A DNA stretch of 64,000 nucleotides from Demequina aurantiaca (lineage in GTDB: Bacteria > Actinomycetota > Actinomycetes > Actinomycetales > Demequinaceae): contig NZ_BBRF01000001.1 in assembly GCF_000975135.1 (NCBI RefSeq), positions 655,591 through 719,590 on the forward strand. Direction: 5' to 3'. Both the position numbers and the translations under genes were made by a program. The notes beneath the pieces were generated by a model. It saw only the letters and a program-made list of their open reading frames with translations. It was not told the DNA's origin and did not search any database. How positions within the stretch are numbered: position 1 is the first letter of the stretch; each line of letters begins with the position of its first letter. Shown one piece after another: positions 12,001 through 26,061 of this stretch.

Positions 12001-15000
12001 CAGATCGTCGGTGCAGGGGTCGGGAACGGTCGTGCCGTAGATCTCATAGATGACGCCACCGGGGCCGGTGCCAACTGCATCGGGGTTGGTGAGAATGGGG
12101 GTCCATTCGCTGCCGCGCTGCGCGGGGTTGATCGCGCCCGTATCTCCGGGCGTCGGAAGGACATCGATCGCCACCAGGTGGTCAATGGGCACAGTTCCCG
12201 TGTTCTGGAGTGCGAGTCGCCACGTCTCAGTGCCACCTGGCTTGGTGATGGGCACGCAGGGTGCCGTATAGAACCCCTCCGAGTTGGGCGTGCACGTGTA
12301 GCCGGGCACCACGCTCATGACGCCGAGCTCATCGTCGTCCGCCTTGACGAGCTTGCCAGAACGGATCGCTCCGCCGGCGCTGAGGTCGATGCTCGTCGAA
12401 CCGTCGCACGAAGGCGCGGGCGGGCTTTGGGCATCGCCGTTGCAGGTATCGATCGGGCGGTCACCGCTCATCGACGCAGTGTTCTCAATCGGCACGGCAG
12501 TGGGGAAGCCGGCACGCACCACCGTGTCGATGGTGATGGTGTACGACTGACCGGCCGCGAGGGCCACGCCAGGGGCAAAAGAGAACGTGATGGTGGGCGG
12601 TGTGCCGTCGATCGCCTCCGCAATGCTGACGGCTGCCACATCCGTGGGCAGCGGGGTGCCCTCGGCGGGGTCGGGGTTAGGGCCGGTCAGCGTAAACGCG
12701 TAGGGGCTCACTCCCGTTGCCGCGTCGTTGGGGTTCAGCAGCAAGATCGCGCCATCCGCGTCATACGGCAGGGTGTCCACGAACACCGGGTTGGTCACGG
12801 TCGTGGGACCGTCGTTGGTGAACGTCAGCGTGTAGGGAATGGCAACGCCGGGGCTCTGTGTGCCGGATGGCGACTTGGAGACGGTCACTGCCGTGGGCGA
12901 GTGTGCGTAAGTGACGTCCGCATCTACGTCGTCCGCGTCATCCGTGATGGGGCTGCCGCCAGAGGATAGGTAGGAGGTCACCGTGCCGTCGATGGTGTTG
13001 ACCGACACACCTGCGTTGTCCTCCCCTGGGGCGGCCTCGTTGCCGGGCAGATCCGTAGGCGGCGCGTCGCCAGTCAGCATCTGCGCACGACGCTTCACCA
13101 AGATCGGAATCTCCTGGTGTGGTTGCTCGGAGTTCTCCCACGCGGCACCGTCCGCGCGCGTGTAGGTGACAATCAGGCCCTGCACGTCGGCGGGGTCCGT
13201 GATCGAGGCGGGTAGCGCCGGGTCGGTGGCGAAGGTCCCGGCCACCGTCTGCTGTGAGGTCACGGTCAGGTCGCCGCCAAGGTCACCCGTGAACGTTCCT
13301 CCCGTCAGGGCGTCCACCTTCACGCGGTCGATCGGCGTGGCGAACGTGAAGCTGGGATCGAAGCCAACGAATTCGTACGCGTTCCAGAAGGTGGGATCGA
13401 CGTCACGGATCTCCATCTGTGTGGCCCGAGCTCCCTCGATGGGGTAGCCGGTCAGCGTCATCACAAACTCGCTGTTGTCCGGCTCGGTCTGGGAAAAGCC
13501 ATTCTGCTGCGGGTTATCAGTGGCGGCTGGGGCGAAACCCTTCTCCACCGTCATGCCGATGGTGAAGGCGGCCAGATCCATCGTGTCCGCGTCGGTGGCG
13601 TTGGGGGGCGATGGCTGACTACTGTCAAGCCCGGCGTCGTCGACTTCTGCGTAAGCGACGTTGTTCACCACCGTCCCCGCGTCGTCCTGATCGATCGCGT
13701 CGCCGGAGATGCGGCGGTTGGTTCTGAGCTGCAGGTCAACCACGACACCGGCGCTCGCCGCTGGCACAATTCTGCCCTCGAACAGGACGCTCACGCCGAT
13801 GGCGTCGGCCAGGTCGATCGGTTGCCACAGGAGGGCCTGCGCGATTGTTCCGACGAGAGGTCCACCGGTTGATCGATCGACCGTCACCGTCGTGGTGCCG
13901 TCTCCCGTGCCATCCGGCGGGATGGTGGTGTCGAGGAACGCGGGCGGTGTGATGGACACAAACTTGTACAGGTTGAAATAGTCCCCCGGCGACGTCGCCG
14001 GGTCGAGGACTAGATTCTGCGGGTCATCGATGCGCAGGGAGTCCGCGTACGCCGCTGAATCATTCGTGGCTTCCAGAGCGACGCGGGTGGTGGGGTAGTC
14101 CGACTGCTGCGTACCGGTGGGTGGAATTCCTACCGGGCCTCCCGTCCAGGTCTTGTCCAGCGACGTGCCGAAGGGAACGTACAGAATGACGATGTCGTCC
14201 GAGGCGTTCTGATTGATGTCGTCCCGGTCGGAGAAATCTGCCTGCGCATTCACCGTATTTGTCACCAGGCCGGCGTCGACCGCGTTGTACACCTGGTCGG
14301 CCGTGACCACGCTGCCGTCCGAGCGGCGGTCGTCACGGATGCGGAAGGTGAGGTCGACGTGACGCTCGTTGCCTACGCTGCGGGCTACTCCCGAGCCCAC
14401 TGGTGGGGCGAGCGGATCAGTGCTCGTCGCGCGGTCCGGGCTCTCGATGACCACGATCTGAACCGACAGCGTAGTGTCCTGCTCCTGCGGGGTTAGGGCG
14501 ATCGCCGGCAGTCCGCCGGTGCATGCAGCGGTAGCGATGCCGTTGGCTGCCCCGGAGGGATCATCGGTACATGGGCTGTTCTGCGGTGGCTCCCACGCGT
14601 TCGTCATGCCGTTGTAGAGCAGCACCGTGTCAATCGCGTCGTACGCAATGAGCGGGTCGAGGCCGGTCGTGATGGCGTCGATGCTCACCAGGTCGAACGC
14701 ATCGTAGACGGAGGTCGAAACAGTAGAGAGGTCCGGATTGGGGGCATCGGTGAGCGTCACCGAGTCTGCGTTGGAGTACCCTCCGGTGGACCACTGAAGC
14801 TGCGCCTGTACCTCGTCGCGGGTGCGAGCGCCCACCTCCGTGTCGAGCCACTGCTTGTCGATGATGTCGCCGCCACCATTGTCCGGGTCCTCCGGATCCA
14901 GCACATTGACGGTGTCACACGCGGGATCGCTGTCCGAGGAAAGACCCTCGTCGGTGTCCGACGACGCTCCCGAGCAGTTCTCGAACGACATCGGCAGGCT

Positions 15001-17100
15001 GTCGTCGTCGGGATTGGTGGGGTCGTAGTTCATCACGATGTTCGGCTGCACCACGTCACCGGGGTCAAACACGTCGGGCGAAGTGAAGGTGAACTGAAGG
15101 CCACCCACCGTCGCGGGATCCGGAGTCGGGAAGGAGTACGACCAGGGCGAGTCCGCGTCCGTCAGTCCCTGCGCGCCGGGGAGGGGGACCCAGGCGTTCC
15201 CATCCCAATAGCTCACGCTGAGGCTCGCCCCTGGGGGAATGTCCACGTTGGTAATGCGTGACGGGTTGAACGCGTCCCAGAACTCGCTGCCCTGCGGGGT
15301 GTCGTCACTGGGGCTGGTGGCAACGGGGTCCTGCACGACGATGGTGTTGGCGCCCGTGGTGGAGTAGGGCGACTGCGGATTGGTGAAGTCATCCGGCAAT
15401 GGCGCCGGGCCACCTGGCAGCTGCAGCACGACGTACTCGCCGGCGAGGCCCAAAATCGTGTGTGGCGTGATCGTCTTGTCCGTCACGGATTCGATGTGGG
15501 TGAGGTAGGCAATGAACGAGTCGGAGGCGTCGTCCGTGCCCGTGGCGCCGGTATCGGTCGTGGCCGCCGCCGTGACCTCGTTGGGGATCTCGGTCGATGT
15601 GGCGGTGTCATCCGGGTCGGTACCGATGACGGCGACGACGGTGGCCGTCGCCCCGGGCGGAATGTCGCCGGTGAAGTCAATGCCAAATCGGACCACGTCA
15701 TCGGGCCGCGTCGGCGGGGGAATCTCCTCACCCGGGTTGAACGTGAAGGTCTCCTCGGTGGGGCTGCCGTCCGGGTAGTAGTACGTGACGCTACCCTCGG
15801 TCGCACCCGCGGGGAATGTGGGGGCGGCGTCGAAACCCTCGAAGGTCATGGAGTCGTCGAAGCCGGGATCGTTCAGCGTCTCGCCTGACTCCACGGCGGG
15901 TTCGATAATCGAGAGCGTCTCGACGTTGTCATTCCAGGCGTTTTCCGCCGTCAACGTCGCGTCGGACGTTCCACCGTGGGGCACGTACTGGGGGTCAAAG
16001 GTCTTGCCAGCGACCACATCGGGAACGTTGCCGAGAATCGTATACGTGGCGTTCCCGGTGCTGGATTCCGTCTCGCCGTCACGCGTGACTTCGGATGCGA
16101 CGGTATTGGGCACCGCGACATCCGCGTCAATGTTGCCCACATCGCGCTGCGTGGTGTCGATGGCGATATTCGCGGTGGCTCCCGCATCGATGGTGCCCGT
16201 GGAGCTCGTATACGTGATGCGTACGCCAAGGACATCGTCAGGGTCCACCCCATCCGGGATCTCACCGGTGGGGCTCGGGTCGCCCTCGACCCATCCGCTG
16301 GCGGTATAGACGTCAATCTGCACCGCGTCGGCTCCTGGGGGAAGAGGAACGACGGAAATGGAGTCAAACGCCAACGAGTCGAACGGGTTCGGAGAGGCCG
16401 TAGGGTCCGACGGCTCGGTCACCACCAGGGAATCGACGCCCACCGTCGAGGTGTTTTCAGCGTCGATGTTGATGGTGGTGGGGGTGCCCGCGGCCGCCTG
16501 ACCCGAGGAGGGGTCGAACGACTTGGACACCGTGGTGTCGAGCTCCAGCGGAACCTCGACGGTCACGGTCGCGCTGTCCGTGGCATCGTCCGTGTTCGGG
16601 TTGTCGGCGCTAAACGTGGCGTCGTTGGTGATCTGGGAGCCGTTGTCGTCATACGTGAAGTCGTCGTCCGCCGTCACGTCCACCAGGATCGTTGCGGTCG
16701 AGCCTGCCAGCATGCCGCTTCCGCCTGCGGGGTCGACAAATGCTGTGATGAAATCGACGTCGACAGTCTGTCCCGAGGAGTTGTCGAGGTAGTCGGCGTA
16801 CAGGGTCACGCTGACGTTGTCGACGGTTAGCCCGGCGGGGACCACATCGGTGACGTTCGCCCCCGTACACCCCGCGGGTTGCTGTGATCCTGAATAGATG
16901 CAGCTCACCTGGATGGTGTACGTAAACGACTCGCCCGGCGCAATGGTGTCCGTGGAGGCGTCCTTGGTGATGAGCAGTCCGGCTGGCTCCTCGGCACTAG
17001 CCGGACCCGCAAGAACGACGATGCCGGTGCTGGCGAGGGCGGCGACGAGCAGGGCGCTCCACGCTCGTTGGGCCTTGGTCATCCAGGTGCTCCGGCGCAT
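9079..17100 (-). CDS. Giant LAXTG-anchored surface protein with DUF11-like and DUF5979-like repeats
   Basis: 2673 residues. Signal peptide 1-36 ends PASA. Then about nine units of 150-230 residues, each opening with a Lys-containing strand (for example VSKSFDP near 192, AGKTFDP 366, LDKTWTG 980, VEKGFAP 1185, VSKSPSG 1403) in the style of DUF11/isopeptide-type beta-sandwiches. Residues about 1797-2625 hold seven DUF5979-like units of about 115 residues. The C-terminus is a cell-wall sorting signal: LAGTG near 2635, a hydrophobic stretch, then RRKREPEHTNQ. LAXTG fits class E sortases; no sortase is in the window. Ile-peptide Lys/Asn cross-links are likely but unproved. A good Shine-Dalgarno, GGAGG 9 bases before the ATG, sets the start. 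Likely a rod-like adhesin or wall-surface stalk. Confidence 0.9.
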   Translation of the reverse strand: MRRSTWMTKAQRAWSALLVAALASTGIVVLAGPASAEEPAGLLITKDASTDTIAPGESFTYTIQVSCIYSGSQQPAGCTGANVTDVVPAGLTVDNVSVTLYADYLDNSSGQTVDVDFITAFVDPAGGSGMLAGSTATILVDVTADDDFTYDDNGSQITNDATFSADNPNTDDATDSATVTVEVPLELDTTVSKSFDPSSGQAAAGTPTTINIDAENTSTVGVDSLVVTEPSDPTASPNPFDSLAFDSISVVPLPPGADAVQIDVYTASGWVEGDPSPTGEIPDGVDPDDVLGVRITYTSSTGTIDAGATANIAIDTTQRDVGNIDADVAVPNTVASEVTRDGETESSTGNATYTILGNVPDVVAGKTFDPQYVPHGGTSDATLTAENAWNDNVETLSIIEPAVESGETLNDPGFDDSMTFEGFDAAPTFPAGATEGSVTYYYPDGSPTEETFTFNPGEEIPPPTRPDDVVRFGIDFTGDIPPGATATVVAVIGTDPDDTATSTEIPNEVTAAATTDTGATGTDDASDSFIAYLTHIESVTDKTITPHTILGLAGEYVVLQLPGGPAPLPDDFTNPQSPYSTTGANTIVVQDPVATSPSDDTPQGSEFWDAFNPSRITNVDIPPGASLSVSYWDGNAWVPLPGAQGLTDADSPWSYSFPTPDPATVGGLQFTFTSPDVFDPGDVVQPNIVMNYDPTNPDDDSLPMSFENCSGASSDTDEGLSSDSDPACDTVNVLDPEDPDNGGGDIIDKQWLDTEVGARTRDEVQAQLQWSTGGYSNADSVTLTDAPNPDLSTVSTSVYDAFDLVSIDAITTGLDPLIAYDAIDTVLLYNGMTNAWEPPQNSPCTDDPSGAANGIATAACTGGLPAIALTPQEQDTTLSVQIVVIESPDRATSTDPLAPPVGSGVARSVGNERHVDLTFRIRDDRRSDGSVVTADQVYNAVDAGLVTNTVNAQADFSDRDDINQNASDDIVILYVPFGTSLDKTWTGGPVGIPPTGTQQSDYPTTRVALEATNDSAAYADSLRIDDPQNLVLDPATSPGDYFNLYKFVSITPPAFLDTTIPPDGTGDGTTTVTVDRSTGGPLVGTIAQALLWQPIDLADAIGVSVLFEGRIVPAASAGVVVDLQLRTNRRISGDAIDQDDAGTVVNNVAYAEVDDAGLDSSQPSPPNATDADTMDLAAFTIGMTVEKGFAPAATDNPQQNGFSQTEPDNSEFVMTLTGYPIEGARATQMEIRDVDPTFWNAYEFVGFDPSFTFATPIDRVKVDALTGGTFTGDLGGDLTVTSQQTVAGTFATDPALPASITDPADVQGLIVTYTRADGAAWENSEQPHQEIPILVKRRAQMLTGDAPPTDLPGNEAAPGEDNAGVSVNTIDGTVTSYLSSGGSPITDDADDVDADVTYAHSPTAVTVSKSPSGTQSPGVAIPYTLTFTNDGPTTVTNPVFVDTLPYDADGAILLLNPNDAATGVSPYAFTLTGPNPDPAEGTPLPTDVAAVSIAEAIDGTPPTITFSFAPGVALAAGQSYTITIDTVVRAGFPTAVPIENTASMSGDRPIDTCNGDAQSPPAPSCDGSTSIDLSAGGAIRSGKLVKADDDELGVMSVVPGYTCTPNSEGFYTAPCVPITKPGGTETWRLALQNTGTVPIDHLVAIDVLPTPGDTGAINPAQRGSEWTPILTNPDAVGTGPGGVIYEIYGTTVPDPCTDDLYALTPDCPAGTWFPFADFAADPSVITALKYEAVFAANAPLEPGDHVTFDAVSQTPLSSPTAGPDTIAWNTVATGGTTTTGTEILPTEGTKVGVALATGPLDIVKTTTGNGAAIWAPDEFIVQVVCTAGPDDEVVFDETLTIAADDQTRIDDLPWGANCMVTEQDGANGEWDSTSNEVTIGRDTDPVPLATLENDYQLASITVSKAVIGTGPSGADPADAGPFPMLVQCTYLGERIYADGYGPSAPMVTLLRDGGETTFTGLPAGADCTVREITAAGSVATTVTTTTATEGPTTAPGLMTTLSLTPDDPTSNDGTTNFVDFVNQYALGALTINKTVDGPGADEYGAGPFTIHVTCVYERTFPLADVTTYDDDVVLGGQYPLSETIGGIPTGSVCTLEETNTAGADTFYFGNTEGTLTTQVTITDDVEPVVVNATNYFETLVSLDVTKIVDPAAQDADGNVPDLGPFDVSVECVYKPNSDYTRVVYATGYDASNPMVNQLVNEQVWTLDGLPTGTTCTATETDTRGADSTTTTATNSNDTVTTDATTASLVLTDDGPLGRTTNHFVFENSFDVGSLTLRKLRDGPGADELGAGPFTFHIECSLLTPLPVRSTYSGDITLTGEPWTQTIDGLVAGSLCTITETDVGGADYVEFTNSQGDPTEAHVIIGADAEVTVTATNYFEQLASLAVTKTVADNVQLADGSSPDLGPFPVRVQCVYGEGTLHRQTVYADGYSRLRPMDVALSPDETVIFEGLPATSDCTVTELTNGGAVSTTTTVTTAVVGPDTADGATGTLTLTPDNPGVTNTVEIVNAYAAGSLEIIKQVTGDGAASLGDGPFGFHVECVLERDVLADVTTYTADVTLGGDQPLSTTIDGIVAGSDCTVTETDAGGADLTTFQPGGGSADEGVTVQVDADATVSVTAINQFDVPPAPDNGGGDLAGTGFDNWGLVWLGGALVLVGGVLLVVRRKREPEHTNQ
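9225..11709 (-). repeat. Seven DUF5979-like coding repeats, alternating two types
   Basis: Within the giant protein. After a first unit, types A and B alternate three times. A units contain a YADGY/YATGY motif, PM, GLP-type turn and STTTT run; B units contain GPGAD, GAGPF, DVTTY, GIxAGS and end in ATNYF. All have the GPF...V.C and C.V.E signatures with a Cys pair likely forming a disulfide or stabilising the fold. Confidence 0.8.
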
Positions 17101-17170
17101 CTATCGCTTCCTCCGCATGACGGGTCGCTGTCACATCGAGAACCACTCGGCATCTCACCCGTTGAAAAAG

Positions 17171-17176
17171 ATCATA
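17171..17176 (-). promoter_or_regulatory. Possible -10 (TATGAT) of the giant surface protein gene
   Basis: TATGAT within an AT-rich patch of an otherwise GC-rich intergenic region would give a leader of about 65 bases ending in GGAGG-N9-ATG. No convincing -35 is visible. Confidence 0.3.
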
Positions 17177-17235
17177 ACAACCCCTCTTGTCCCCGGTTTT
17201 TCCAGGTGTCAGGCGGTATCTGCGAGACTGTGGGC

Positions 17236-17958
17236 ATGAAGCAGACCCTCCGCATCCTTGTTCTGTCAGTCGTGAGCGTCGTCGCGCTCTCAGGCTGCAT
17301 GCGCATGGAGATGAGCCTCGAGCTGAGCGACCATGACACCGCGAGCGGTAGTTACGTGATGGCCATCAAGGAGGGCACTGGCGAGCAGCTCGGCGCTACT
17401 AGCGATCAAGAGGCCGCAGACGAACTCTTTGGCGACCTCGGCGACGGCATCGAGGGAGCGTCCGTCACGGAGTACCACGAGGACGGCTACGTCGGCACCA
17501 AGGCGACGTTTGAGGACCAGACCTTCGCGGACCTCAACCTCAACTCCGACGACATGCGCATCAGCCGCGAGGGCGACGAGTACGTGGTCGCTGGGACCTA
17601 CGGCTCGGGCGAGGCCGCAAATCTGGGCGAATTGCCGGACGATGCCGTGGCCACCCTGGCCATCACGTTCCCCGGGAAGGTCGCGGAGACCAACGGCACC
17701 GTGGAAGGCAATACCGTGACGTGGGACCTGAAACAGCAGTCGGACGATCTCTACGCCCGCGGCGCGGCGAGTGGAGACTCGGGCATGTCGCTGTGGCTGT
17801 GGCTGGCCATCGGCTTCGTGGCGCTGGTCGTCGTCGCCGGTGTGGTGGTGCTCATTCTCGGCTCCCGGCGCTCCCCCAAGGCAACGACTCCCGAACCGCC
17901 GGCGGCACCCCTTCCCCCCAGGGAGTCGTTCAACCCCGAGGACCGTCGGCTCGACTAG
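17236..17958 (+). CDS. LppM-like (DUF3153-type) lipoprotein, copy 1 of 4
   Basis: 240 residues. Lipobox LSGC puts the lipidated Cys at 21. The extracytoplasmic part carries the landmarks shared by the array: EDGYVGTKATF, ISREGDEYVVAG, ITFPGKVAETNGTVEGNTV and a TWDL strand. A C-terminal membrane helix (about residues 180-204) precedes a Pro-rich cytoplasmic tail, so the protein is anchored at both ends. The family is known from Mycobacterium LppM, an envelope lipoprotein affecting host-cell trafficking; the biochemical role is unknown. First of a four-gene tandem array; ATG is preceded at 6 bases by GAGACT, a weak version of the local leaderless signal. Confidence 0.8.
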   Translation: MKQTLRILVLSVVSVVALSGCMRMEMSLELSDHDTASGSYVMAIKEGTGEQLGATSDQEAADELFGDLGDGIEGASVTEYHEDGYVGTKATFEDQTFADLNLNSDDMRISREGDEYVVAGTYGSGEAANLGELPDDAVATLAITFPGKVAETNGTVEGNTVTWDLKQQSDDLYARGAASGDSGMSLWLWLAIGFVALVVVAGVVVLILGSRRSPKATTPEPPAAPLPPRESFNPEDRRLD

Positions 17959-18060
17959 GCCGACATTCACCGAAGGCTCGCGGCCAGGTCAGCCGGCCAA
18001 CCCGCCGCCCTCCAGCGTGGGTTACAGGTAAATCCACTGTCACCATGCCACCCTTGGCGC

Positions 18061-18825
18061 GTGAAGATGTCCCTGCGCCTCGCGCTGGTCGCCATCGTAG
18101 GCGCGGCCACGTTGAGCGGTTGCATGCGCTTCACCGCCGACCTGCGCCTGGAGCCAGACAACACCGTCAACGGCACTTACGTGGTGGCCGTGGAGAACGG
18201 CACCGGCGACACCTTGGGCGTCAGCGACGCCGAGGCTTCACAGAACCTATACGACGACTCCGGCCTATCCTCGCAACTCGCGCACTCGATGCAGCGTGTC
18301 TACAAGGACGACGGCTACACCGGACTGCAGGTGGAGTTTCGAGGCGAAGATATCGCTAGGTTCGCGCCCACCGACGACCGTTTTGGGATTGTCCGCGAGG
18401 ACGACGAGTTCGTCGTGAGTGGGCCCTCCTCGGACGTGTCCGAGGATGATGCGGAGTCGCTCAAAGGGGCCGACCTTCGCGTGTCGATCGAGTTCCCCGG
18501 GCCGGTGAGTGAGTCCAACGGCACCGTGGACGGCACCACCGTCACGTGGAACTTGGTCGGTGGGCCAGAGGTGCTCACCGCCCGCGGCTCCGCCGTTCCC
18601 TCGAGCTCTCCCCTGGGTGCGATCCTCATGACCGTCCTGGTGTTGGGCTCCTCCGCCGCCGTGCTGCGGTCGCGTTCTCTCGCCGCCCACGGGCCGCGCC
18701 GCAAGCCACCCGCCAGCCGACGGACCGCCGGCCCAACTCGAGCGGCAAGCAAGCCGAACCCACCACGCAGGCCCGCGGCGGCATCGGCTCCCCGCCAACC
18801 GCGCCCCGCTCCCCCGCACCGGTAA
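18061..18825 (+). CDS. LppM-like (DUF3153-type) lipoprotein, copy 2 of 4
   Basis: 254 residues from a GTG start (an in-frame ATG two codons later is an alternative). Lipobox LSGC at about residue 21. Shares DDGYTGLQVEF, IVREDDEFVVSG and IEFPGPVSESNGTVDGTTV with copies 1 and 3. A hydrophobic segment (about 181-200) is followed by an unusually long, basic, Ala/Pro/Arg-rich tail of about 55 residues, much longer than in the other copies. CACCCT lies 6 bases before the GTG. The extracytoplasmic domain is presumed to have the same fold as copy 1; function unknown. Confidence 0.78.
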   Translation: MKMSLRLALVAIVGAATLSGCMRFTADLRLEPDNTVNGTYVVAVENGTGDTLGVSDAEASQNLYDDSGLSSQLAHSMQRVYKDDGYTGLQVEFRGEDIARFAPTDDRFGIVREDDEFVVSGPSSDVSEDDAESLKGADLRVSIEFPGPVSESNGTVDGTTVTWNLVGGPEVLTARGSAVPSSSPLGAILMTVLVLGSSAAVLRSRSLAAHGPRRKPPASRRTAGPTRAASKPNPPRRPAAASAPRQPRPAPPHR

Positions 18826-18872
18826 CACCGCCACACCCCCTCGAGAGCCCACGCATATGGGACAGTGGGGAC

Positions 18873-19604
18873 ATGAATACTCCGCTCCGGATCGCCGCGA
18901 TCGCCACCCTGGTGGCGGTCGTTCTGACGGGGTGTGTCCGGGTTCAGATCGACCTCACCCTGACGCCCGATGACACGGTGGACGGGACGATGGTGCTTGC
19001 CCTCCAGGAGGGAATCGGTGAGCTCCTGGACACCACTGACGCCGAGGCGGCCGAGCAGCTGTTTGGCGAAACCACGGCAAGCTTTGACGACGCCGTCGTC
19101 AACAAGTACGAGCAGGACGGCTACGTGGGTCAAAAAGTTAGTTTTGACGGGCAGGCCATCGGTAACTTTGCCCTCGACGCGGGCGACTTCACCATCTCGC
19201 GGGACGGTGAAAACTACGTGGTCAACGGGCCCGTCGACCCCAACATTGCAGCCGGCGGGGCGGACATCCCCGACTCCGCGCAGATGTGGCTCAGCGTGAC
19301 CTTCCCGGGTGAAGTGACCGAGCACAACGGCTCTCGTGAGGGCCACACCGTGACGTGGGACCTCACCAACGCACCGGCCGAGCTCCACGCGGTGGGCGGC
19401 GCCGAGGCCACCACGGAAACCCCCAGCTGGCTCTTCACGGCCATCGGTATCGTGTTGCTCCTCGGGGTGGCGATCGTGCTGTTCTTCGCCATGCGGAATC
19501 GGGGAGCTGCAACCGCGCCCACCCGCGTCGCGGTCACCCAGGCGAAGCCAGTCGGGCCCCAGCCCTCGATCTCCACGCCTCCCGAAGAATCAAAGCTCAC
19601 ATGA
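18873..19604 (+). CDS. LppM-like (DUF3153-type) lipoprotein, copy 3 of 4
   Basis: 243 residues. Lipobox LTGC at residue 21, then EQDGYVGQKVSFDG, ISRDGENYVVNG and VTFPGEVTEHNGSREGHTV, closely matching copy 1, and a C-terminal membrane helix (about 190-211) with a short polar tail. The ATG at 18873 was chosen because the lipoprotein signal begins there; the frame is open further upstream but only as antisense-like sequence over copy 2. Its stop overlaps the start of copy 4 by 4 bases (ATGA), so copies 3 and 4 are translationally coupled. Confidence 0.8.
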   Translation: MNTPLRIAAIATLVAVVLTGCVRVQIDLTLTPDDTVDGTMVLALQEGIGELLDTTDAEAAEQLFGETTASFDDAVVNKYEQDGYVGQKVSFDGQAIGNFALDAGDFTISRDGENYVVNGPVDPNIAAGGADIPDSAQMWLSVTFPGEVTEHNGSREGHTVTWDLTNAPAELHAVGGAEATTETPSWLFTAIGIVLLLGVAIVLFFAMRNRGAATAPTRVAVTQAKPVGPQPSISTPPEESKLT

Positions 19605-20443
19605 CGCGTACCGTCTCTCAGTTCCTGGCAGTGGGCGCCCTGGCGGTCGTCACGCTCGCCGGATGCGTGCGCATCGACTCCGACACCAGCATCGGTTCCG
19701 ACGACACCTTCTCGCAGCACGTGATCGTCGCGTTCACCGACTCCGTGGCGACCCAGGTGAGCCAGCAAGCCGGCATCAACGTCCGCGAACTCACCGGCAG
19801 CCTCGGGGATAGTGCGGAACTCAAGGACCTGCAGGCGAAGTATCCCGACCACGTGACTCTCGAGGACTACGAGGACGAGGACCTACGCGGACTCGAGCTC
19901 ACGATGACCGACCTCCCCCTCAGCGAGTTCAACGAAGCGGCGTCGCAGGTCACCGCAGGCTTTGGCGCCACCGCGAGCATCACTCACGAGGGCGACTCCT
20001 TTGTGGTGATGATGGCAGCACCGGATCCGGCCGATGCCGAGGCGTCGCCTTCCCCCGGGGCTAGCGACGGCCCCTTAGGCGACGTCGACCTCGGCGCACT
20101 AGGCCTCAGCGGCGGCAACCTGGCGGCGCTGGGTAGCGCCATCGACTTTGAAGTCAGCTACACCTTCCCCGGGCTGGTGCGCGAGGCAAGCGCGGGTGAC
20201 ATTGACGGCAACACCGTGACGCTCGGAGCGAGCGATGTGCTGTCCGGCAGCGACATACGCCTCGTAGGCGGCGACTCCACCCAGATTGACTGGTGGCCCT
20301 TCATCAAGTGGGCGCTGATCATCGCGGCGTTCACCTCGGTGATTGGCGGCGCGGCGTTGCTGGTGCGCCAGGACAAGCGGCGCCAGCGTTCCACCTCACT
20401 TCCCCCGCCAGAGGTGGGTAGATCGACTCCGCCTGCCGCGTAG
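19601..20443 (+). CDS. LppM-like (DUF3153-type) lipoprotein, divergent copy 4 of 4
   Basis: 280 residues, the longest and most divergent of the array. Lipobox LAGC at residue 21-22; VSYTFPGLVREASAGDIDGNTV aligns with the FPG...NG strand of the other copies, and KWALIIAAFTSVIGGAALLV is the C-terminal membrane helix. It has an inserted acidic, Gly/Ser/Pro-rich linker (about residues 145-175). Resembles single-copy LppM proteins of other actinobacteria at least as much as its neighbours, so it may be the ancestral member. Converges with kdgK with 9 bases between the stops and no visible terminator. Confidence 0.78.
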   Translation: MTRTVSQFLAVGALAVVTLAGCVRIDSDTSIGSDDTFSQHVIVAFTDSVATQVSQQAGINVRELTGSLGDSAELKDLQAKYPDHVTLEDYEDEDLRGLELTMTDLPLSEFNEAASQVTAGFGATASITHEGDSFVVMMAAPDPADAEASPSPGASDGPLGDVDLGALGLSGGNLAALGSAIDFEVSYTFPGLVREASAGDIDGNTVTLGASDVLSGSDIRLVGGDSTQIDWWPFIKWALIIAAFTSVIGGAALLVRQDKRRQRSTSLPPPEVGRSTPPAA

Positions 20444-20452
20444 ATGAACGTA

Positions 20453-21397
20453 CTACCTCGAGACGGGGTCGACGCTGGCGACCTGGAGGTCGCTACGACG
20501 TGGCGCTCCCTCCCAGTCTCCTGCGTTGCTACAGGCCGCAGCTCCTGCCTTGGTCGCCGTCGACAGCCGACCGGAAATGGACGCCCCATTGAGCAATTCG
20601 CTTAAATATCCAGCGACAAAGGCATCCCCCGCGCCCACGGTGTCGACCACAAACGTCGGATGCGCAGAACTCCTTGTGACAATTCCGTCTACCAGCGTGA
20701 GTGCACCACTGGCTCCGAGTTTGACCACGACTTCCCGCGGCCCCAACTCATGCAGGCGATGTGCAAGCTCCTCAGGGCCATGCCCTTCCACGAGAAGTGC
20801 TGCTTCCTCTTCCCCCGCGAAGACCACGTCCGCCAATGACACTAGCGAGAGGTGAGAACGCACTGCCTCCTCTCTCACTGGCCACAATCTAGGACGGTGA
20901 TTCACATCTACGGAGACCATCACACCGGAGCTTCTCGCTCTCGTGACGAGCGCCGCAATGGTAGCGGCGGCTGAGTTTGACAGCGCCGGGGTAATACCCG
21001 TCACGTGAACTAGCTCGAATTCACTCACTCTTACCGCATCGAGATCTGCGACAGTAAGGCGGCTGCCCGCACTACCTGACCGCAGGTGCATGACATCTGT
21101 CCGGCCCGGTGAGGGGGAAGACTTCAGCAGCATGCCAGTCGGCGCGGTGGCGTCTACATGAGCGATGACTTCAACTCCTTCGGCACGCAGTTCGCGTGTC
21201 ACACGACGCCCTATAGCGTCGTCGCCGACCCTCCCCATCCATGTGACCGAGGTGCCAAGGCGGGCTAGGCCGACCGCGACATTCCCCTCAGCGCCGCCGG
21301 TGCTGAGCGTCATCTCGGATACATGCTCGAGCGAGCCCACCTCTCCGGCTCGCGCTATCCCCAGGCCCTCCCCAACCGTGAAAACCCGCGTGGTCAC
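20453..21397 (-). CDS. kdgK: PfkB-family sugar kinase, probable 2-keto-3-deoxygluconate kinase
   Basis: 314 residues of the ribokinase/PfkB fold: the N-terminal GGAEGNVAVGLARLG binding motif near residue 34 and the catalytic DTVGAGDAFVAGYL near residue 252, with the Asp base. In the Entner-Doudoroff-type uronate route it phosphorylates 2-keto-3-deoxygluconate to KDPG. The specificity is assigned from context: its start overlaps the KDPG aldolase stop by 4 bases (GTGA) and a mannonate dehydratase gene is in the divergent arm. Last gene of the leftward arm of the island. Confidence 0.85.
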   Translation of the reverse strand: MTTRVFTVGEGLGIARAGEVGSLEHVSEMTLSTGGAEGNVAVGLARLGTSVTWMGRVGDDAIGRRVTRELRAEGVEVIAHVDATAPTGMLLKSSPSPGRTDVMHLRSGSAGSRLTVADLDAVRVSEFELVHVTGITPALSNSAAATIAALVTRARSSGVMVSVDVNHRPRLWPVREEAVRSHLSLVSLADVVFAGEEEAALLVEGHGPEELAHRLHELGPREVVVKLGASGALTLVDGIVTRSSAHPTFVVDTVGAGDAFVAGYLSELLNGASISGRLSTATKAGAAACSNAGDWEGAPRRSDLQVASVDPVSR

Positions 21398-22023
21398 GGC
21401 GACACCAACTCAAAAGCCTCACGGCTGAGTCGTGCAATCTGCGAAAACTCACCTCCAGCTACCAGTCTCCGCGTCGCCATCCAACTACCACTCACCGCGA
21501 ACACCGACGTGGACTGTGCATAACGTGCGACGTTTAGTGGTGTGACGCCACCACTGGGCATGAAGCGAACTCCGGGGAAGGGGCCCGCGAGCTGCTCGAT
21601 CGTAGTGATGCCCCCCATCACCTCGGCGGGAAAAAACTTGAGAACGTCGAGGCCGAGTCGGACGGCCCGTTGCACCTCCGTCGCGGTCGCGACGCCCGGG
21701 ATTACCGTCACGTCGTGATGCCGGCAGCGCGAAACCACTTCGTCGTCGAGACCGGGAGACACTACGAATCGCGCCCCTGCGTCCACCACACGATCCACAT
21801 CGTCCGCTGTCAACACGGTCCCAGCACCGATGAGGAAGTCAGGAACGTCGGCCACAAGCTCGATCGCCTCAATAGCGGCAGCCGTACGCAGGGTAATCTC
21901 GGCGCAACGGATTCCACCCGCGGCCAATGCCTGCGCCAGGGGGCGGGCCGTGGTGGCATCGTCGATCACCAGCACCGGGACGATCTTACCGAAGCCGCCT
22001 AGGTTTAGTCCGTCGCTAGTCAT
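21394..22023 (-). CDS. eda: KDPG aldolase (2-keto-3-deoxy-6-phosphogluconate aldolase)
   Basis: 209 residues, the usual size for this class I aldolase, which cleaves KDPG to pyruvate and glyceraldehyde 3-phosphate. Landmarks: EITLRTAAAIEAIE with the catalytic Glu, IGAGTVLTADDVDRVVDAG, FVVSPGLDDEVV, the Schiff-base Lys in DVLKFFPAEVMGG, and MPSGGVTPLNVARY. The frame is open up to 22068, but the ATG at 22023 gives the family length and overlaps the upstream gene by only 8 bases. Acts directly after KdgK, encoded downstream with a 4-base overlap. Confidence 0.92.
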   Translation of the reverse strand: MTSDGLNLGGFGKIVPVLVIDDATTARPLAQALAAGGIRCAEITLRTAAAIEAIELVADVPDFLIGAGTVLTADDVDRVVDAGARFVVSPGLDDEVVSRCRHHDVTVIPGVATATEVQRAVRLGLDVLKFFPAEVMGGITTIEQLAGPFPGVRFMPSGGVTPLNVARYAQSTSVFAVSGSWMATRRLVAGGEFSQIARLSREAFELVSP

Positions 22024-22846
22024 CGGCGCCGGACCATCCCAAGAGGTTCTTGGCGTTGGAGCAGTCAAAGAAGCCGCTGTCTCCGCTCAATGCTGGCCGT
22101 ATCTCTACATCCGGAAAGTGCCTCTGTGAGAGTGCGCGGGAGTCCTCGCGAAGTACGTTGCGGTCGGCGACAATGAAGAACCGCTCGTGGCCCGCGAACG
22201 GTGCCGTCAACGCACTAAGGCATGCGTCTATCCACATCCTGTGCGTCGTGTATCCCCACAACCCGCGCACCGCAGCCTCCCCGTAAAAGTCGCCGACACT
22301 CCAGCCGTGCGCTTCCTCGTGGTGAGGCATGAACATGTGTAGCCTCAGGCTCGCTACGCTCAACTGAGGGTTGAGGCGCACAATGGAATCCGCCTGAACT
22401 TCTCCTAGCCATTTGGACAGACTGTACGGATCCTCATTGCGGGTTGGGTGCCGCTCGTCCACCGGCAGGTAGTCAAATACAGGCGATGCGCTCCACGTCA
22501 TACCGATCGCGTTCACGCTCGAAGCCATCACAACCCGCCCGATACCTAGCGCTGTCGCAGCAGTCAGCACGTTGTAGCTGCCCGTCACGTTAATGTGGTG
22601 GACATCCTGAGGCTCATAGTCGACGGGGTTCGCCAGTCCCGCCAGGTGCACTATCGCATCCGCTCCCTCTGCCACCTTGAGAATCGCGGCGTAGTCAGTG
22701 ATACTCACTTCGGCGAACCCACAGTCCTGGAACTCTGCAGGCATCGGTGCGCGATCTGCCACCACGACCTCATGTCCGGCATCAAGCAAAGCGCGGACGG
22801 TGACGATGCCCACACGTCCGCTGCCTCCGGTCACAATGATCTTCAT
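22016..22846 (-). CDS. NAD-dependent epimerase/dehydratase-family protein, uronate dehydrogenase-like
   Basis: 276 residues, extended short-chain fold. The dinucleotide-binding GGSGRVGIV is at residues 7-15, the AIVHLAGLANP strand near 66 and the catalytic Tyr-X3-Lys is YSLSK near 141. The ending FDCSNAKNLLGWSG resembles the DNS...LGW ending of bacterial uronate dehydrogenases, which oxidise glucuronate or galacturonate to aldarolactones. In this island it may oxidise the incoming uronic acid or reduce a keto-uronate; the sequence does not settle which. Overlaps the aldolase start by 8 bases and follows the permease gene by 19 bases. Confidence 0.75.
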   Translation of the reverse strand: MKIIVTGGSGRVGIVTVRALLDAGHEVVVADRAPMPAEFQDCGFAEVSITDYAAILKVAEGADAIVHLAGLANPVDYEPQDVHHINVTGSYNVLTAATALGIGRVVMASSVNAIGMTWSASPVFDYLPVDERHPTRNEDPYSLSKWLGEVQADSIVRLNPQLSVASLRLHMFMPHHEEAHGWSVGDFYGEAAVRGLWGYTTHRMWIDACLSALTAPFAGHERFFIVADRNVLREDSRALSQRHFPDVEIRPALSGDSGFFDCSNAKNLLGWSGADD

Positions 22847-22865
22847 CGGTAATCGCTCATTTCTT

Positions 22866-23687
22866 TCACTCCTTCACGGCTCCTGCAGTGAGTCCTACTG
22901 AGATGTATCGCTGCGCCCCTACGAGTAGGAGCATCGCGGGTACCAGGGCGATAGTGGCGGTCGCCATAATCCCACCCCAGTCAGTTTGGAAATGGCCCAC
23001 GAATTGGAACAGGCTCAGTGACAGCGGCGTGATACTGCCATCAGTATTCAACGTGAGCGCCCATAGGAAGTCCCCCCACGCAAATAGGAAGCTGAACAAC
23101 CCAGCCGCAACGATCGCCGAGCGCGTAGCCGGCGCGATGATCGAGTAAAGTGTCCGCCATTCTCCAGCTCCGTCCAGGTGCGCTGCCTCCCTAATTGAGT
23201 CCGGAATCCCACTCATGAATGCCGTCAATACGAGGATGGTGAAAGGCACTCCGGCTGCGCTGTTGGCGAGCACAAGCCCCGGCACTGAATTCAGGAGACC
23301 GATGTCTGAGAAAGTGAGAAAAAGCGGGGTGGCGAGCATCACCGTCGGCACCACCTGGGTGATGAGAATGAGAAACATCGCTATTGCAACCCAGCGCCAC
23401 TTGAAGACCGCGAGCGCATATGCCGCTGGTATGCCGACCAGCAATGACACGACCGCTGACAGTGTCGCGATCAGTAGCGTTGTGAACAACGGACCGATTT
23501 GAGAGGAGAGCACATCATAGTTGTCGAAGGTGAAATTGCGAGGAATCAAGGATGGCTCCGGCGCATAGAAGTCTGCAGCGGGCTGGAATGATGAGAGCAC
23601 AACCCACAGCAGCGGGAAGAGAAGCACACCGAGAATAGCGAGCGCGATGAGCGTCTGACCGTACCGAAACATCGTCCCGCTAGGCAT
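22866..23687 (-). CDS. Carbohydrate ABC transporter permease (MalG type)
   Basis: 273 residues with six membrane helices. The cytoplasmic EAA loop that docks the ATPase is IREAAHLDGAGEWRTLYSIIAP near residue 183. Belongs to the CUT1 class of importers for oligosaccharides and their derivatives. The start at 23687 overlaps the partner permease stop by 8 bases. No ATP-binding subunit is encoded in the island, so a shared MsmK/UgpC-type ATPase elsewhere is probably used. Confidence 0.9.
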   Translation of the reverse strand: MPSGTMFRYGQTLIALAILGVLLFPLLWVVLSSFQPAADFYAPEPSLIPRNFTFDNYDVLSSQIGPLFTTLLIATLSAVVSLLVGIPAAYALAVFKWRWVAIAMFLILITQVVPTVMLATPLFLTFSDIGLLNSVPGLVLANSAAGVPFTILVLTAFMSGIPDSIREAAHLDGAGEWRTLYSIIAPATRSAIVAAGLFSFLFAWGDFLWALTLNTDGSITPLSLSLFQFVGHFQTDWGGIMATATIALVPAMLLLVGAQRYISVGLTAGAVKE

Positions 23688-24648
23688 TGTTCTGCCTTCT
23701 CTGTACGAGCGTATAGAACACGATGACGATCCCCGACGCCACAAACAAGAAATCCGCCACCGCGGCTCCTTGCCCAAAGTTGTTGTTATTGAATGAGAGA
23801 GTGTACGACCATGTCGATAGGAGCTGGGACGAGTTTCCCGGTCCGCCTTGCGTCAAGGTCCACACCAGGTCAAATTGCTTCAGGGTGTAGACAAACCCCA
23901 GCACAAGGAGCACTGCGGTCACCGGGCCCAGGGCGGGAACTGTGATGTACCAAAAGCGCTGCCAGTACCCCGCGCCGTCAATCTGTGCAGCTTCGTAGCG
24001 CTCCGTCGGAATGCTTTGTAGCCCTGAATGCAACAACACCAGGTTGAACGCGATCCCAATCCAGATATTGACGATGATGATAGATAGGAGCGCCGTGTCG
24101 GAGGAGGTCAACCAGTGCACGGGCGGCACTCCAAAGTGCCCAAGCAGCTGATTCAGAAAGCCATTCGGGTCCTGAAAGATAAACCGCCATGCAGTAGTTG
24201 CCACGATCGATGGCACCAACCAGGGCAACACGAGGAGCGCGCGGATGGTGGTGCTGAGTGGAAACCTGTTGTAAAAGAACAGGGCAAGCCCGAGGCCGAT
24301 GACAAACTGGACGACAAGCGAGACAACCGTAAACACCGCCGTGTTGACGGCGGCACCTGCGAATCCCGGATCGTTGATAGCGGTGACGATGTTGTCCAGA
24401 CCAACAAACTCAGAGGCGCCAGTGACCAACGATGCCAGGTCGTAGGACTGAAAGGTCAACCAGAAATTGAATGCCATCGGGTAGGCGAACATCAGCAAAA
24501 GGAACACCGTCACCGGGAGCAAGAAAACGAGGCGGCCGGCTACTACGCGAGTTGGCAACTGACGCCGTCGGGCACCCACCAGGTTTCCGGGCGCTCGAGT
24601 GCGCGAACGAGAGGCAGCCTCCACGTCCATCAGGGTTTCTCGTTTCAT
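23680..24648 (-). CDS. Carbohydrate ABC transporter permease (MalF type)
   Basis: 322 residues, six membrane helices after a basic N-terminus (TRAPGNLVGARRRQLPTR). The EAA loop is YEAAQIDGAGYWQRFWYITVPAL near residue 216, ending in the usual Pro. Forms the inner-membrane channel with the MalG-type protein downstream. The frame extends upstream to 24828 into the tail of the binding-protein gene; the ATG at 24648 was chosen because it leaves a 55-base gap after that gene and gives family length. An in-frame ATG six codons later is an alternative. Confidence 0.9.
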   Translation of the reverse strand: MKRETLMDVEAASRSRTRAPGNLVGARRRQLPTRVVAGRLVFLLPVTVFLLLMFAYPMAFNFWLTFQSYDLASLVTGASEFVGLDNIVTAINDPGFAGAAVNTAVFTVVSLVVQFVIGLGLALFFYNRFPLSTTIRALLVLPWLVPSIVATTAWRFIFQDPNGFLNQLLGHFGVPPVHWLTSSDTALLSIIIVNIWIGIAFNLVLLHSGLQSIPTERYEAAQIDGAGYWQRFWYITVPALGPVTAVLLVLGFVYTLKQFDLVWTLTQGGPGNSSQLLSTWSYTLSFNNNNFGQGAAVADFLFVASGIVIVFYTLVQRRQNNA

Positions 24649-24703
24649 TTTGATCCCATCCGTTGGTCGGTCGGGGCTCCCCTCCAGCCCCGACCGAAGC
24701 GTG

Positions 24704-25948
24704 CTACTTGTCGCCCGAGGCTGCGGAGCTCTGTGCCGCGGCCATAGCATCTTCAGGCGATTCAGCGCCCGTGGCAATCTGCTGCAATGCCGCCGAGAGC
24801 GCCACCGTTCGCGACTGGTAGTTGGCACCGACCTCCTCGGTGCGTCCTCGCGAATTCTTCAACTGCTCGGCAAGTACCTCGAGGTGCGGGGCTGACTCGA
24901 GAACTGCCGCCTGCGCGGGGATGTAGGAAGGCAGGTACCCGAGAAATTCATCGCGCTCAGCGAGTCCTTCCGTGTCGGATGACCAAGAAATGATGCAGTC
25001 GTTCACGGCGGTGAGCGCCTCACCGGTGGCACCTACACCCGCAACCATCACTTCACCTCCGAACGGCACAATGGGAGCCTCACCGTCCTTGCTGACCTGT
25101 GTCGTGATGCCAATCTCTATTCCCGCCTCATCGGCGGTGTCGAGAAGCGCGTTGAGAGTCCACGTCCCTACTTGTGCCATGGCAAGGCGGCCTTCCACCA
25201 GCTCGTTGATGAGGTTGTCCGACTGCCATTGCAGCGAGGCTTGCGGGGCGGTGCCATCGACCAAGAATGACGCCCAGAATTCCGCTGACTCTACGGCCGC
25301 AGACGAGTCCAACTCGGCAATGGATCCGCCGGCCGACCATAGTTGAGCCCAGTAGTTCCACGACAGCGTCTCGCCAGCCGCAAACGTCTGCCCGAAGCCG
25401 TAGCGCCCGTCGGTGGTGAGCACCTGAGCTGCGTGGGACAGGTCCGCCCACGACTCTGGTGCGCTCAGTCCGGCGTCGTCAAGCAACTGCTTGTTATAGA
25501 CGATGACCTCACCGTTGTTGCCCACCGGCAGGCCGTACTGCTCACCTTCATACTGGCCGGACTTGAAAGGGCCCTGAACAAAGTCGTCTGGATCCAGAGA
25601 ACCGAGTTCGATGGGCGTCAACACCTCGGACTTTGCCAGCCCCGCAATCATTTGGTTGTCAGCGACAATGACGTCCGGGGCGTCGCCACTGGCGGTAAGT
25701 TGCACCGCCTTGTTGAGCAACTGGTCCGCCGGGACCTGCAACTGCTTGAACGCGTATCCGCCGTCCGCCGTGCAACCGTCAAAGAATTCTTGATACATGG
25801 TCAACTGGTCATCCGTGGCGTTCTGCGCGTACGTCAAAACTGTCAGCGGTTCGCCCTTCGACGCCTCACCCGGCGAGTCGCTACTGCAACTGGCGAGCAC
25901 CGTCGCTGAGGCCGCGATTGTCGCGCCGATCAATAACGTCTTCTTCAT
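24704..25948 (-). CDS. Extracellular solute-binding lipoprotein of CUT1 ABC importer
   Basis: 414 residues. Lipoprotein signal MKKTLLIGATIAASATVLASC places the lipidated Cys near residue 21; the rest has the two-lobed MalE/UgpB family pattern (VLTYAQNATDDQLTMYQEFF, DVIVADNQMIAGLAKSEVL, GRLAMAQVGTWTLN). It would deliver an oligosaccharide or uronide to the two permeases downstream. The ATG at 25948 has AGGGG 8 bases upstream; a TTG two codons earlier is open but less likely. First and probably most abundant product of the leftward arm. Confidence 0.92.
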   Translation of the reverse strand: MKKTLLIGATIAASATVLASCSSDSPGEASKGEPLTVLTYAQNATDDQLTMYQEFFDGCTADGGYAFKQLQVPADQLLNKAVQLTASGDAPDVIVADNQMIAGLAKSEVLTPIELGSLDPDDFVQGPFKSGQYEGEQYGLPVGNNGEVIVYNKQLLDDAGLSAPESWADLSHAAQVLTTDGRYGFGQTFAAGETLSWNYWAQLWSAGGSIAELDSSAAVESAEFWASFLVDGTAPQASLQWQSDNLINELVEGRLAMAQVGTWTLNALLDTADEAGIEIGITTQVSKDGEAPIVPFGGEVMVAGVGATGEALTAVNDCIISWSSDTEGLAERDEFLGYLPSYIPAQAAVLESAPHLEVLAEQLKNSRGRTEEVGANYQSRTVALSAALQQIATGAESPEDAMAAAQSSAASGDK

Positions 25949-26054: not shown

Positions 26055-26061
26055 GTGAGAT

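Follow-up and report, generated by a model that had tools for sequence, protein, structure and literature searches.

We identified an MFS transporter gene, absent from the initial annotation, as the constant neighbour of the LppM lipoprotein genes in the genus Demequina. Comparison with relatives shows that the four copies of D. aurantiaca belong to older orthologue classes and are distinct old members of a gene set with a fixed order. Our preferred reading, to which we give a probability of about 0.4, is that the array is the LppM part of a Demequinaceae envelope lipid-handling operon, [P][D][C]-A-B-MFS. In the window (the whole stretch of 64,000 nucleotides that was analysed), the adjacency of class B and the MFS gene is hidden because lpp4 is interrupted near its 3' end by a 9.5-kb island.

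The array consists of four plus-strand open reading frames (17236-20443). All four match the Pfam LppM family (PF21946) above its curated cut-off of 27 bits (Table 1) and the genome, which is 99.9% complete in 6 contigs, gave no further match, which confirms the four tandem LppM genes first described. The lipobox and C-terminal membrane helix ascribed to each copy were also found: the lipoboxes end in LSGC, LSGC, LTGC and LAGC in copies 1 to 4, and the most hydrophobic 19-residue C-terminal windows have mean Kyte-Doolittle values of 3.21, 2.04, 2.93 and 2.21, with copy 2 the weakest. Copies 3 and 4, the two that were modelled, are each predicted to have a single long C-terminal helix. Double anchoring is not special to this array, since LppM proteins in 39 stretches from 36 genomes of other families likewise have a hydrophobic C-terminal window (mean Kyte-Doolittle 1.75-3.67) followed by a tail. 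The cytosolic tails of copies 1 to 4 (32, 52, 38 and 25 residues, with net charges of +1, +14, +3 and +4) are as unlike as had been noted, and their kinds differ by class. Identity to copy 1 is 38% for copy 2, 42% for copy 3 and 27% for copy 4. Compared with D. oxidasica, dN/dS was 0.09, 0.15, 0.02 and 0.07 for the whole proteins of copies 1 to 4 (dS 0.70-1.05, near saturation) and 0.01-0.09 for the ectodomains in this one species pair. All four genes look maintained, since these values are low.

Table 1. Features of the LppM array and its surroundings in the window (TM, membrane helix).
Feature	Position	Strand	Parts or size	Basis or remark
Giant DUF11/DUF5979 repeat protein	9079-17100	-	C-terminal LAGTG-TM sorting signal	Pfam and sequence
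Divergent gap, giant gene to lpp1	17101-17235		135 bases	No sigma-70-type consensus found
lpp1, class A (extra leading copy)	17236-17958	+	Lipid-anchor Cys codon 17296-17298; TM ~17803-17859; cytosolic tail ~17860-17955	PF21946 115.1 bits; class; tail; dN/dS 0.09
lpp2, class C, basic tail (net +14)	18061-18825	+	Cys codon 18121-18123; TM ~18610-18666 (weak); tail ~18667-18822	PF21946 96.2 bits; class C clade
lpp3, class A (canonical A copy)	18873-19604	+	Cys codon 18933-18935; TM ~19431-19487; tail ~19488-19601	PF21946 122.7 bits; tree; model pLDDT 82.2
lpp4, class B (final copy)	19601-20443	+		PF21946 62.2 bits; class B clade; model pLDDT 86.8
lpp4 cytosolic tail with class-B motif (Q-D-[RK]-R ... 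L-P-P-P)	20366-20440	+		Strict motif match
Inserted island	20412-29906		9.5 kb	Flanks align to the uninterrupted D. oxidasica junction
Remnant of the original lpp4 3' end, stranded by the island	29907-29959	+		Reads RDQPHAQGDPTPQSPQQ-stop; adjoins the MFS gene
MFS transporter	29978-31261	+	427 aa	PF07690 71.5 bits; directly follows class B in most relatives

The LppM copies of Demequina fall into orthologue classes with the fixed order P-D-C-A-B. A quick tree was used to define classes B, C, D and P, and class A comprises the remaining rows of the genus, which formed two groups (33 and 5) in the quick tree and one 38-row node with weak support (60/91) in the finished tree. The classes are carried by 104 genus rows; eight further tree rows come from sister genera g2 and g3. 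Genome G010 (50% complete, with broken frames and four fragments) was excluded from the tree and the class counts, as were one out-of-frame ORF in stretch L073 and three hits with E >1e-9. The best hit of each ectodomain in another genome was to its own class in 104 of 104 cases, with the ectodomain cut at 215 residues for B and D and at 165 for the other classes. The multi-gene arrays on one contig (n=36) fit the order, except for an extra leading A in the window and in D. oxidasica, so the window order A-C-A-B is the common C-A-B set plus one A. Among these arrays P and C never occur in one genome together, and P, D and C are variably present between species. In 43 of 43 cases no other LppM copy follows class B on its contig. 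The lpp3 and lpp4 genes overlap by 4 bases, and 4-nt overlaps were found at 26 of 35 A-B junctions and at 0 of 11 C-A junctions; the start nearest the upstream stop was used, which favours overlaps, and the C-A junctions treated alike served as a control. Since five of the 44 genomes carry B alone, A is dispensable for B.

The placement of the four copies does not agree with their having arisen by local duplication of copies 1 to 3, as initially suggested. A single clade of these three was rejected by the AU test (p-AU 0.00028); copy 2 lies in a separate 12-row clade, class C (support 100/99), copy 3 groups with the A copies of genomes G036 and G032 (95/81), and copy 4 belongs to the 43-row clade of class B (92/94). 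A sister relationship of copies 1 and 3 alone was not rejected (p-AU 0.285). The description of copies 1 to 3 as alike and copy 4 as divergent is therefore right as to the identities, but the closeness is only moderate and the three form no single clade.

Copy number was counted in relatives. With G010, G035 and G041 counted separately from the main tally, at least two LppM copies are present in 39 of 44 Demequina genomes, which is near-universal, and at least four in 6 of 44, so an array of this size is not universal in the genus. In genome G003 a fourth Pfam match falls below the cut-off and lies elsewhere in the genome. Outside the family, 95 of the 273 genomes of the order sample have an LppM match (E<=0.001), exactly one in 77 of the 95; a single gene is thus the usual state there, as had been assumed, but not in Demequina. 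Neighbouring LppM copies also occur as tandem pairs in families f20, f9, f7 and f13 and as a seven-gene array in genus g21 of family f3, which unlike those of Demequina are without this MFS gene alongside. One partner has a short conserved tail (GPLPAAPG) in four of the five f20 pairs, and clpB lies near LppM in 6 of 18 other-family stretches with neighbours listed. No row from another family falls inside the two Demequinaceae clades, and the tree does not support the f20 pairs as orthologues of the Demequina A-B pair, since no f20 row lies in a Demequina clade. In viral contigs three stretches matched a pattern, none encoding a relative of copy 3.

An MFS orthologue lies on the strand of B in 42 of the 43 B-bearing stretches. 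In 34 of the 43 B-bearing genomes it begins about 11-63 nt 3' of B, these distances being extrapolated from the alignment to the MFS start of the window. B and MFS are apart in seven of the remaining stretches and MFS was not found in one, the window being among these eight. In genome G022 the B frame continues into that of MFS; as PGM is also split in two there, a sequencing error is possible. Two genomes of sister genus g2 have an MFS gene, 58% identical, between two LppM genes of its own strand (LppM-MFS-LppM); in genus g3 no MFS gene was seen in the two short stretches read. In the 39 other-family stretches (36 genomes) this MFS gene was not directly beside LppM and two weak relatives were found, neither adjacent. 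Outside the family, an MFS orthologue is present in 48 of 95 genomes with LppM and 34 of 178 without it (Fisher p 1.7e-7, uncorrected for kinship, at an orthologue limit of E<1e-60 that was set after the list was seen). A phmmer search of the PDB found no relative of the window MFS at E<=0.01, so this comparison points neither to a lipid cargo nor to the Rv1410 kind of MFS, with its linker helices and TM11-TM12 extensions.

The island that separates lpp4 from the MFS gene is of a hexuronate type. Its Pfam matches include a PfkB-type kinase, KDPG aldolase, an epimerase, an ABC transporter with binding protein, GH5, IclR, UxuA and RraA, and its G+C is 0.60 compared with 0.66 across the remaining window. 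At the same junction D. oxidasica has 15 bases in its place. From about 20412 on, island sequence takes the place of the lpp4 3' end, and the stranded remnant has its counterpart in the lpp4 tail of D. oxidasica, GDRPHAEGDPTPRSPQQ-stop. A plasmid origin of the island was considered and rejected, as megablast gave no match in the plasmid collection.

The tails carry class-specific features. The strict B tail motif is present in 39 of 43 B proteins and in none of the 61 proteins of the other four classes, and its residues D237 and L246 do not vary among the B rows that were aligned (38 of 43), matching the best ectodomain columns in invariance. The B row of genome G043 has no recognised lipobox. 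A tails are acidic in 32 of 38 cases and the ten intact C tails are all basic (two of the 12 C rows were unusable, G035 being ended by its contig and G039 frame-broken). A charge pairing of acidic A with basic C tails was considered and fails in the window, where the two A tails are net positive (+1 and +3).

The giant wall protein is an optional neighbour outside the conserved unit. It had been presented as lying directly beside the array, and the 135-base divergent gap is indeed there, but there is no fixed partnership: in the stretches read (mostly 20 kb, less on short contigs; ORFs of at least 1100 residues with little Arg, plus BLAST) 15 of 44 Demequina genomes have the giant gene next to the array, upstream and divergent in 10 and downstream and convergent in 5. 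DUF5979 matches were found in 27 of 44 genomes; the 17 with none all carry LppM. A scan of 17000-20600 found no sigma-70-type promoter and two terminator-like sites, both on the minus strand (1.4 expected).

Among solved structures, LppM of M. tuberculosis (Rv2171; 2nc8) comes nearest to both models, with Z 14.9 for copy 3 (rmsd 2.7, 143 aligned) and 13.0 for copy 4 (rmsd 3.6, 152 aligned); the next best Z scores were 7.2 and 7.6. The models thus predict the LppM pseudo-beta-barrel fold for both copies. Hits to the FMO protein, oligosaccharyltransferase subunits and M1 aminopeptidase domains (Z <=7.6) are within the common background range and were set aside. The Demequina proteins resemble Rv2171 in sequence family, predicted fold, and lipobox with C-terminal helix, but differ in having up to five classed copies in fixed order, the MFS gene, the A-B overlap and the class-B cytosolic motif. 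In a review passage, M. tuberculosis LppM is reported to bind phosphatidylinositol mannoside and is treated as one protein (PMC6151718), and a mycobacterial lppM mutant (M. marinum, to judge by its gene names) is reported to be among the most depleted under antibiotics (PMC12802301). Another mycobacterial system, LprG-Rv1410 (P55), is described as a lipoprotein-MFS lipid export operon in which LprG carries triacylated lipids (PMC10576003). A literature search on LppM, Rv2171 and Demequina lipoproteins, with subscription journals mostly outside it, gave nothing on this array among the matches listed.

The best reading of the operon likens it to LprG-Rv1410 in working, not in kinship. In both, lipoprotein genes stand next to an MFS gene, directly so in the 34 Demequina genomes above; in the window itself the island interrupts this arrangement. 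Unlike LprG, the window lipoproteins match PF21946 only (E<=0.001) and not the LppX/LprAFG family PF07161, for which a search of the genome gave no match but left the control unmatched too; and in Demequina there are several lipoproteins, each anchored at both ends. The genome encodes a PIP synthase and an inositol-phosphate synthase, the latter identified with PF01658 because PF07994, which matched none, also missed C. glutamicum. A link to lipomannan was discarded, MptB not being found in the genome with C. glutamicum as a positive control.

We have shown the classes and the order in which they stand, the overlap of A with B, the MFS gene adjacent to them on the same strand, and the LppM sequence and predicted fold; building on these, the operon may work as follows. 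The LppM genes and MFS would be co-transcribed, and the LppM domains would be held on the outer face of the cytoplasmic membrane by the N-terminal lipid and the C-terminal helix. A and B, produced in coupled amounts, would form a heteromer beside the transporter, which would move a lipid or glycolipid across the membrane or to its outer face; a phosphatidylinositol-based lipid is our first guess. The pseudo-barrels could accept this lipid and then hold it or hand it on, and the class-specific tails, chiefly the B motif, may touch the transporter or a partner in assembly. In the strain studied here the island has removed the distal tail of B and shifted MFS 9.5 kb downstream, and the coupling of LppM and MFS is probably weakened because of this truncation and displacement. 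Weighing against the operon reading are the five genomes with B alone, the eight stretches in which MFS is apart from B or was not found, the g3 stretches in which no MFS was seen, the other-family stretches in which this MFS does not directly adjoin LppM, the failure to find MptB and the net positive A tails of the window. A stricter version, in which LppM of Demequinaceae is an obligate part of a lipid-export machine, a doubly anchored A-B heteromer with amounts coupled to MFS that accepts a phosphatidylinositol-type lipid from the transporter and has its tails as class-specific docking signals, seems to us rather unlikely.

It is possible, if less probable than the operon reading, that LppM and MFS merely stay together downstream of PGM, and that the LppM set alone serves as envelope-stabilising lipid-binding lipoproteins. 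In family f13, MFS lies between PGM and LppM without being the next gene to LppM in two genomes, and about 20 kb off in a third (L177-L180), so part of the LppM-MFS linkage may be an inherited neighbourhood. The giant gene separates B and MFS in five genomes in which both are kept, and the sampled LppM genes of other families lack this MFS neighbour, both as expected from such a history. The operon-like, same-strand spacing of B and MFS in 34 of 43 genomes and the LppM-MFS-LppM arrangement of the sister genus argue against it. By comparison, we consider it improbable that the array is a set of exposed lipoproteins whose variation comes from genes being gained and lost, for instance under pressure from phages or predators. 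The turnover of P, D and C between species, the strong tail variation and the patchiness of the giant repeat protein next door would fit, but the dN/dS values are low throughout (0.02-0.15 for whole proteins), the gene order is fixed and class identity is retained in every comparison.

A receptor-like role, in which LppM-A and LppM-B would sense an envelope ligand outside and signal through their tail motifs inside, is about as improbable. The invariance and class specificity of the B motif and the opposite charges of most A and all intact C tails are in its favour, but no protein kinase, sigma or anti-sigma gene is among the tracked neighbours (lipid kinase, pheA, GT2, PGM, giant, MFS), and inspection by eye of the first 70 residues of the printed tails of other families did not reveal the B motif. 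Least probable of all is that local duplication, as initially proposed, recently produced copies that specialised to partner the giant wall-anchored protein. The divergent gap and the unrejected sisterhood of copies 1 and 3 speak for this, and the rejected clade of copies 1 to 3, the giant gene found on either side in a minority of genomes and the 17 LppM-bearing genomes without DUF5979 speak against it; the counts have already largely refuted it.

No mycomembrane is expected in Demequina. If the stricter version of the operon reading is true, lipoprotein-MFS lipid export would exist in a second form, unrelated to LprG-Rv1410, in bacteria without a mycomembrane. For mycobacterial LppM a solved fold, a lipid ligand and envelope phenotypes have been described, with no protein partner named in the parts of the reports considered here. 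The natural island insertion in D. aurantiaca would allow an uncoupled arrangement to be compared with that of the close relative D. oxidasica, and the compact, fixed-order LppM-MFS set of this environmental genus would offer a direct route to the cargo of LppM.

We identified the four consecutive genes lpp1 to lpp4 (copies 1-4) as LppM-like lipoprotein genes, as the initial annotation had proposed. All four pass the PF21946 (LppM) cut-off and are the only LppM matches in a six-frame search of the genome, and every product combines a lipobox with a hydrophobic C-terminal helix. In addition, the predicted models of copies 3 and 4 (pLDDT 82.2 and 86.8) match 2nc8, the solved domain of Mycobacterium tuberculosis LppM, with Z scores of 14.9 and 13.0, the next-best structures scoring far lower (7.2 and 7.6). 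Among named genomes, the closest relative of lpp4 is found in Demequina oxidasica NBRC 106264 (93% identity), and dN/dS of the four genes against this species is 0.02-0.15. The array, whose family is already known, is real and maintained, and as a whole it is not recent.

Features of the LppM array and its surroundings in the window
Feature	Position	Strand	Size	Description
giant	9079-17100	-		DUF11/DUF5979 repeat wall-anchored protein gene
lpp1	17236-17958	+		consecutive LppM array gene 1
lpp2	18061-18825	+		consecutive LppM array gene 2
lpp3	18873-19604	+		consecutive LppM array gene 3
lpp4	19601-20443	+		consecutive LppM array gene 4
island	20412-29906		9.5 kb	kinase, KDPG aldolase, epimerase, ABC transporter, GH5, IclR, UxuA and RraA genes
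MFS	29978-31261	+		MFS transporter gene

A descent tree of 112 rows separated the Demequina proteins into classes A (38 rows), B (43), C (12), D (6) and P (5). Classes C (100/99) and B (92/94) are supported in the finished tree; class A, defined as the remainder of the Demequina rows, is a single weak node there (60/91) and two groups in a quick tree. Since ectodomains alone place the best match of all 104 proteins within its own class (same-genome and window-D. oxidasica pairs excluded), the classes are independent of tails and position. The order P, D, C, A, B fits 36 of 36 multi-gene arrays, two of which have an additional leading A; P and C occur together in no array. Class B is the last LppM gene on the contig in 43 of 43 cases. 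The commonest orders are A-B (20 genomes) and C-A-B (7), followed by A-C-A-B, P-A-B and D-C-A-B (2 each) and P-D-B, P-D-A-B and P-D-D-A-B (1 each), with B standing without other classes in five; these counts leave out two arrays split across contigs (G035, G041) and one too broken to class (G010). No lipobox was recognised in the five class P proteins, each the first gene of its array (L078, L060, L037, L054, L062), and several carry cysteines soon after the signal peptide; perhaps this class is secreted and held by the C-terminal helix alone.

Tails and junctions also distinguish the classes. The motif [QD]-D-x-[RKS] ... L-P-x-P is present in the tails of 39 of 43 B proteins and in none of 61 others, with the tail residues D237 and L246 invariant across 38 aligned B rows. 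Tails of A are mostly long and acidic (net negative in 32/38, median -10), those of the window being exceptional at +1 and +3, and C tails are basic in 10/10 intact proteins (+3 to +14). A and B genes overlap by 4 bases at 26 of 35 junctions and by 1 base at two more, and no C-A junction (0/11) has the 4-base overlap. A parallel to the class-B tail is seen in another family, f20, where, in each of four tandem LppM pairs (L110, L112, L113, L114), one of the two proteins carries a short, conserved motif in its tail (GPLPAAPG).

The window reads A, C, A, B, and the earlier suggestion that copies 1-3 are local duplicates fails: joining these copies of the window and D. oxidasica in one clade is rejected (p-AU 0.00028). 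A tree with copies 1 and 3 as sisters is not rejected (p-AU 0.285), and the extra leading A, present in 2 of 44 Demequina genomes, may therefore have been duplicated within the lineage or may be an A copy of older date.

LppM is present in 44/44 Demequina genomes and 47/47 of the family. Across the order, 119 of 297 sampled genomes have a match at E<=0.001 (115 exceed the PF21946 cut-off), 95 of them outside the family. A single gene is indeed usual there, with one match in 77 genomes and several in 18 (maximum 7); a tandem array of seven occurs in family f3, genus g21 (L103, genome G213). Arrays are widespread within Demequina, at least two copies occurring in 39/44 genomes, but at least four are found in only 6/44. 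A class-B protein search of named genomes returned 30 loci. One is a weak match in Propionibacteriales; the other 29 carry the titles Demequina, Demequinaceae or, in one case, Actinobacteria bacterium. In a wider 80-row tree, A and C samples cluster with the sister genera (98% SH-aLRT) and B and D are set off from them (99%). Neither of these Demequinaceae clades takes in tandem copies from other families, many of which, though not all, group with their own family.

The giant wall protein singled out beside the array is indeed its neighbour in the window, but not a fixed partner: in the stretches read it lies upstream and divergent in 10 of 44 Demequina genomes and downstream and convergent in five, and DUF5979 matches occur in 27/44. 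It is an optional neighbour. The protein ends in a LAGTG sorting signal; relatives lie on either side of the array and are absent from many genomes. Many Demequina genomes carry dagK-pheA-GT2-PGM upstream.

The constant neighbour in Demequina is the MFS transporter gene, on the strand of B in 42 of 43 B-bearing stretches and an estimated 11-63 nt 3' of it in 34. The window is one of nine exceptions (9534 nt). In five others the giant separates the two genes (7.5-8.5 kb); the rest are G011 (1.8 kb), G040, in whose B-bearing stretch no MFS gene was found, and Demequina sediminis (G022, L056), where B and MFS share one open frame with no stop. Because PGM is also in pieces there, the joined frame may be a sequencing error; it may otherwise be a fusion.

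The window's own exception is explained by the island. In D. oxidasica the site is uninterrupted, with B and MFS 18 nt apart; the window aligns with this junction through 20411 and resumes at 29907, so that 9495 bases stand in place of 15. The left breakpoint lies inside the 3' end of lpp4, which now terminates in foreign codons (tail RQDKRRQRSTSLPPPEVGRSTPPAA) with its B motif intact, and the original last codons adjoin the MFS gene, in frame with the old stop. Judged by its genes, the island is a predicted hexuronate-type catabolism set of low G+C (0.60 vs 0.66 in the rest of the window); a scan of ten of its proteins found no integrase or transposase.

Two genomes of sister genus g2 (L079, L080) carry LppM-MFS-LppM on a single strand; the short stretches read from g3 yielded no MFS gene, and 39 stretches outside the family no LppM-MFS adjacency. 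Two f13 genomes have the order PGM, MFS, thioredoxin, LppM across 13-20 kb and a third has MFS ~20 kb from LppM, so their linkage may predate the operon. Outside the family, LppM and an MFS orthologue share a genome more often than expected, the orthologue occurring in 48/95 genomes with LppM vs 34/178 without it (p 1.7e-7, uncorrected for kinship, with the orthologue E limit set after the match list was seen). Of 18 stretches from other families with listed neighbours, six, from f9, f13 and f20, have clpB in the vicinity of LppM, and in two f9 stretches (L105, L119) LppM and an S33-type (Hydrolase_4) hydrolase are adjacent and co-directional; the clpB loci, with the f9 hydrolase cases, are L105, L113, L117, L119, L137 and L140.

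According to published work, M. tuberculosis LppM binds phosphatidylinositol mannoside (review, PMC6151718), its mutant clumps and arrives in acidified phagosomes (PMC2936551), and antibiotics deplete a mycobacterial lppM mutant, of M. marinum to judge from the gene names (PMC12802301). PIP synthase and inositol-phosphate synthase were found in the window's genome, so a phosphatidylinositol-based ligand is possible; the lipomannan enzyme MptB was not found there. LprG and the MFS protein Rv1410 form an operon with a role in triacylglyceride export (PMC10576003). The Demequina set is not a member of that system and would share at most a similar way of working. We found no description of the operon form and class grammar of Demequina LppM in the literature searched. 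The analysis shows the classes, order, overlap, spacing and predicted fold, and we infer co-transcription, a ligand, transport and tail docking: the array would supply the lipid-binding proteins of an operon shared with the MFS gene, in which A and B may act as a coupled pair.
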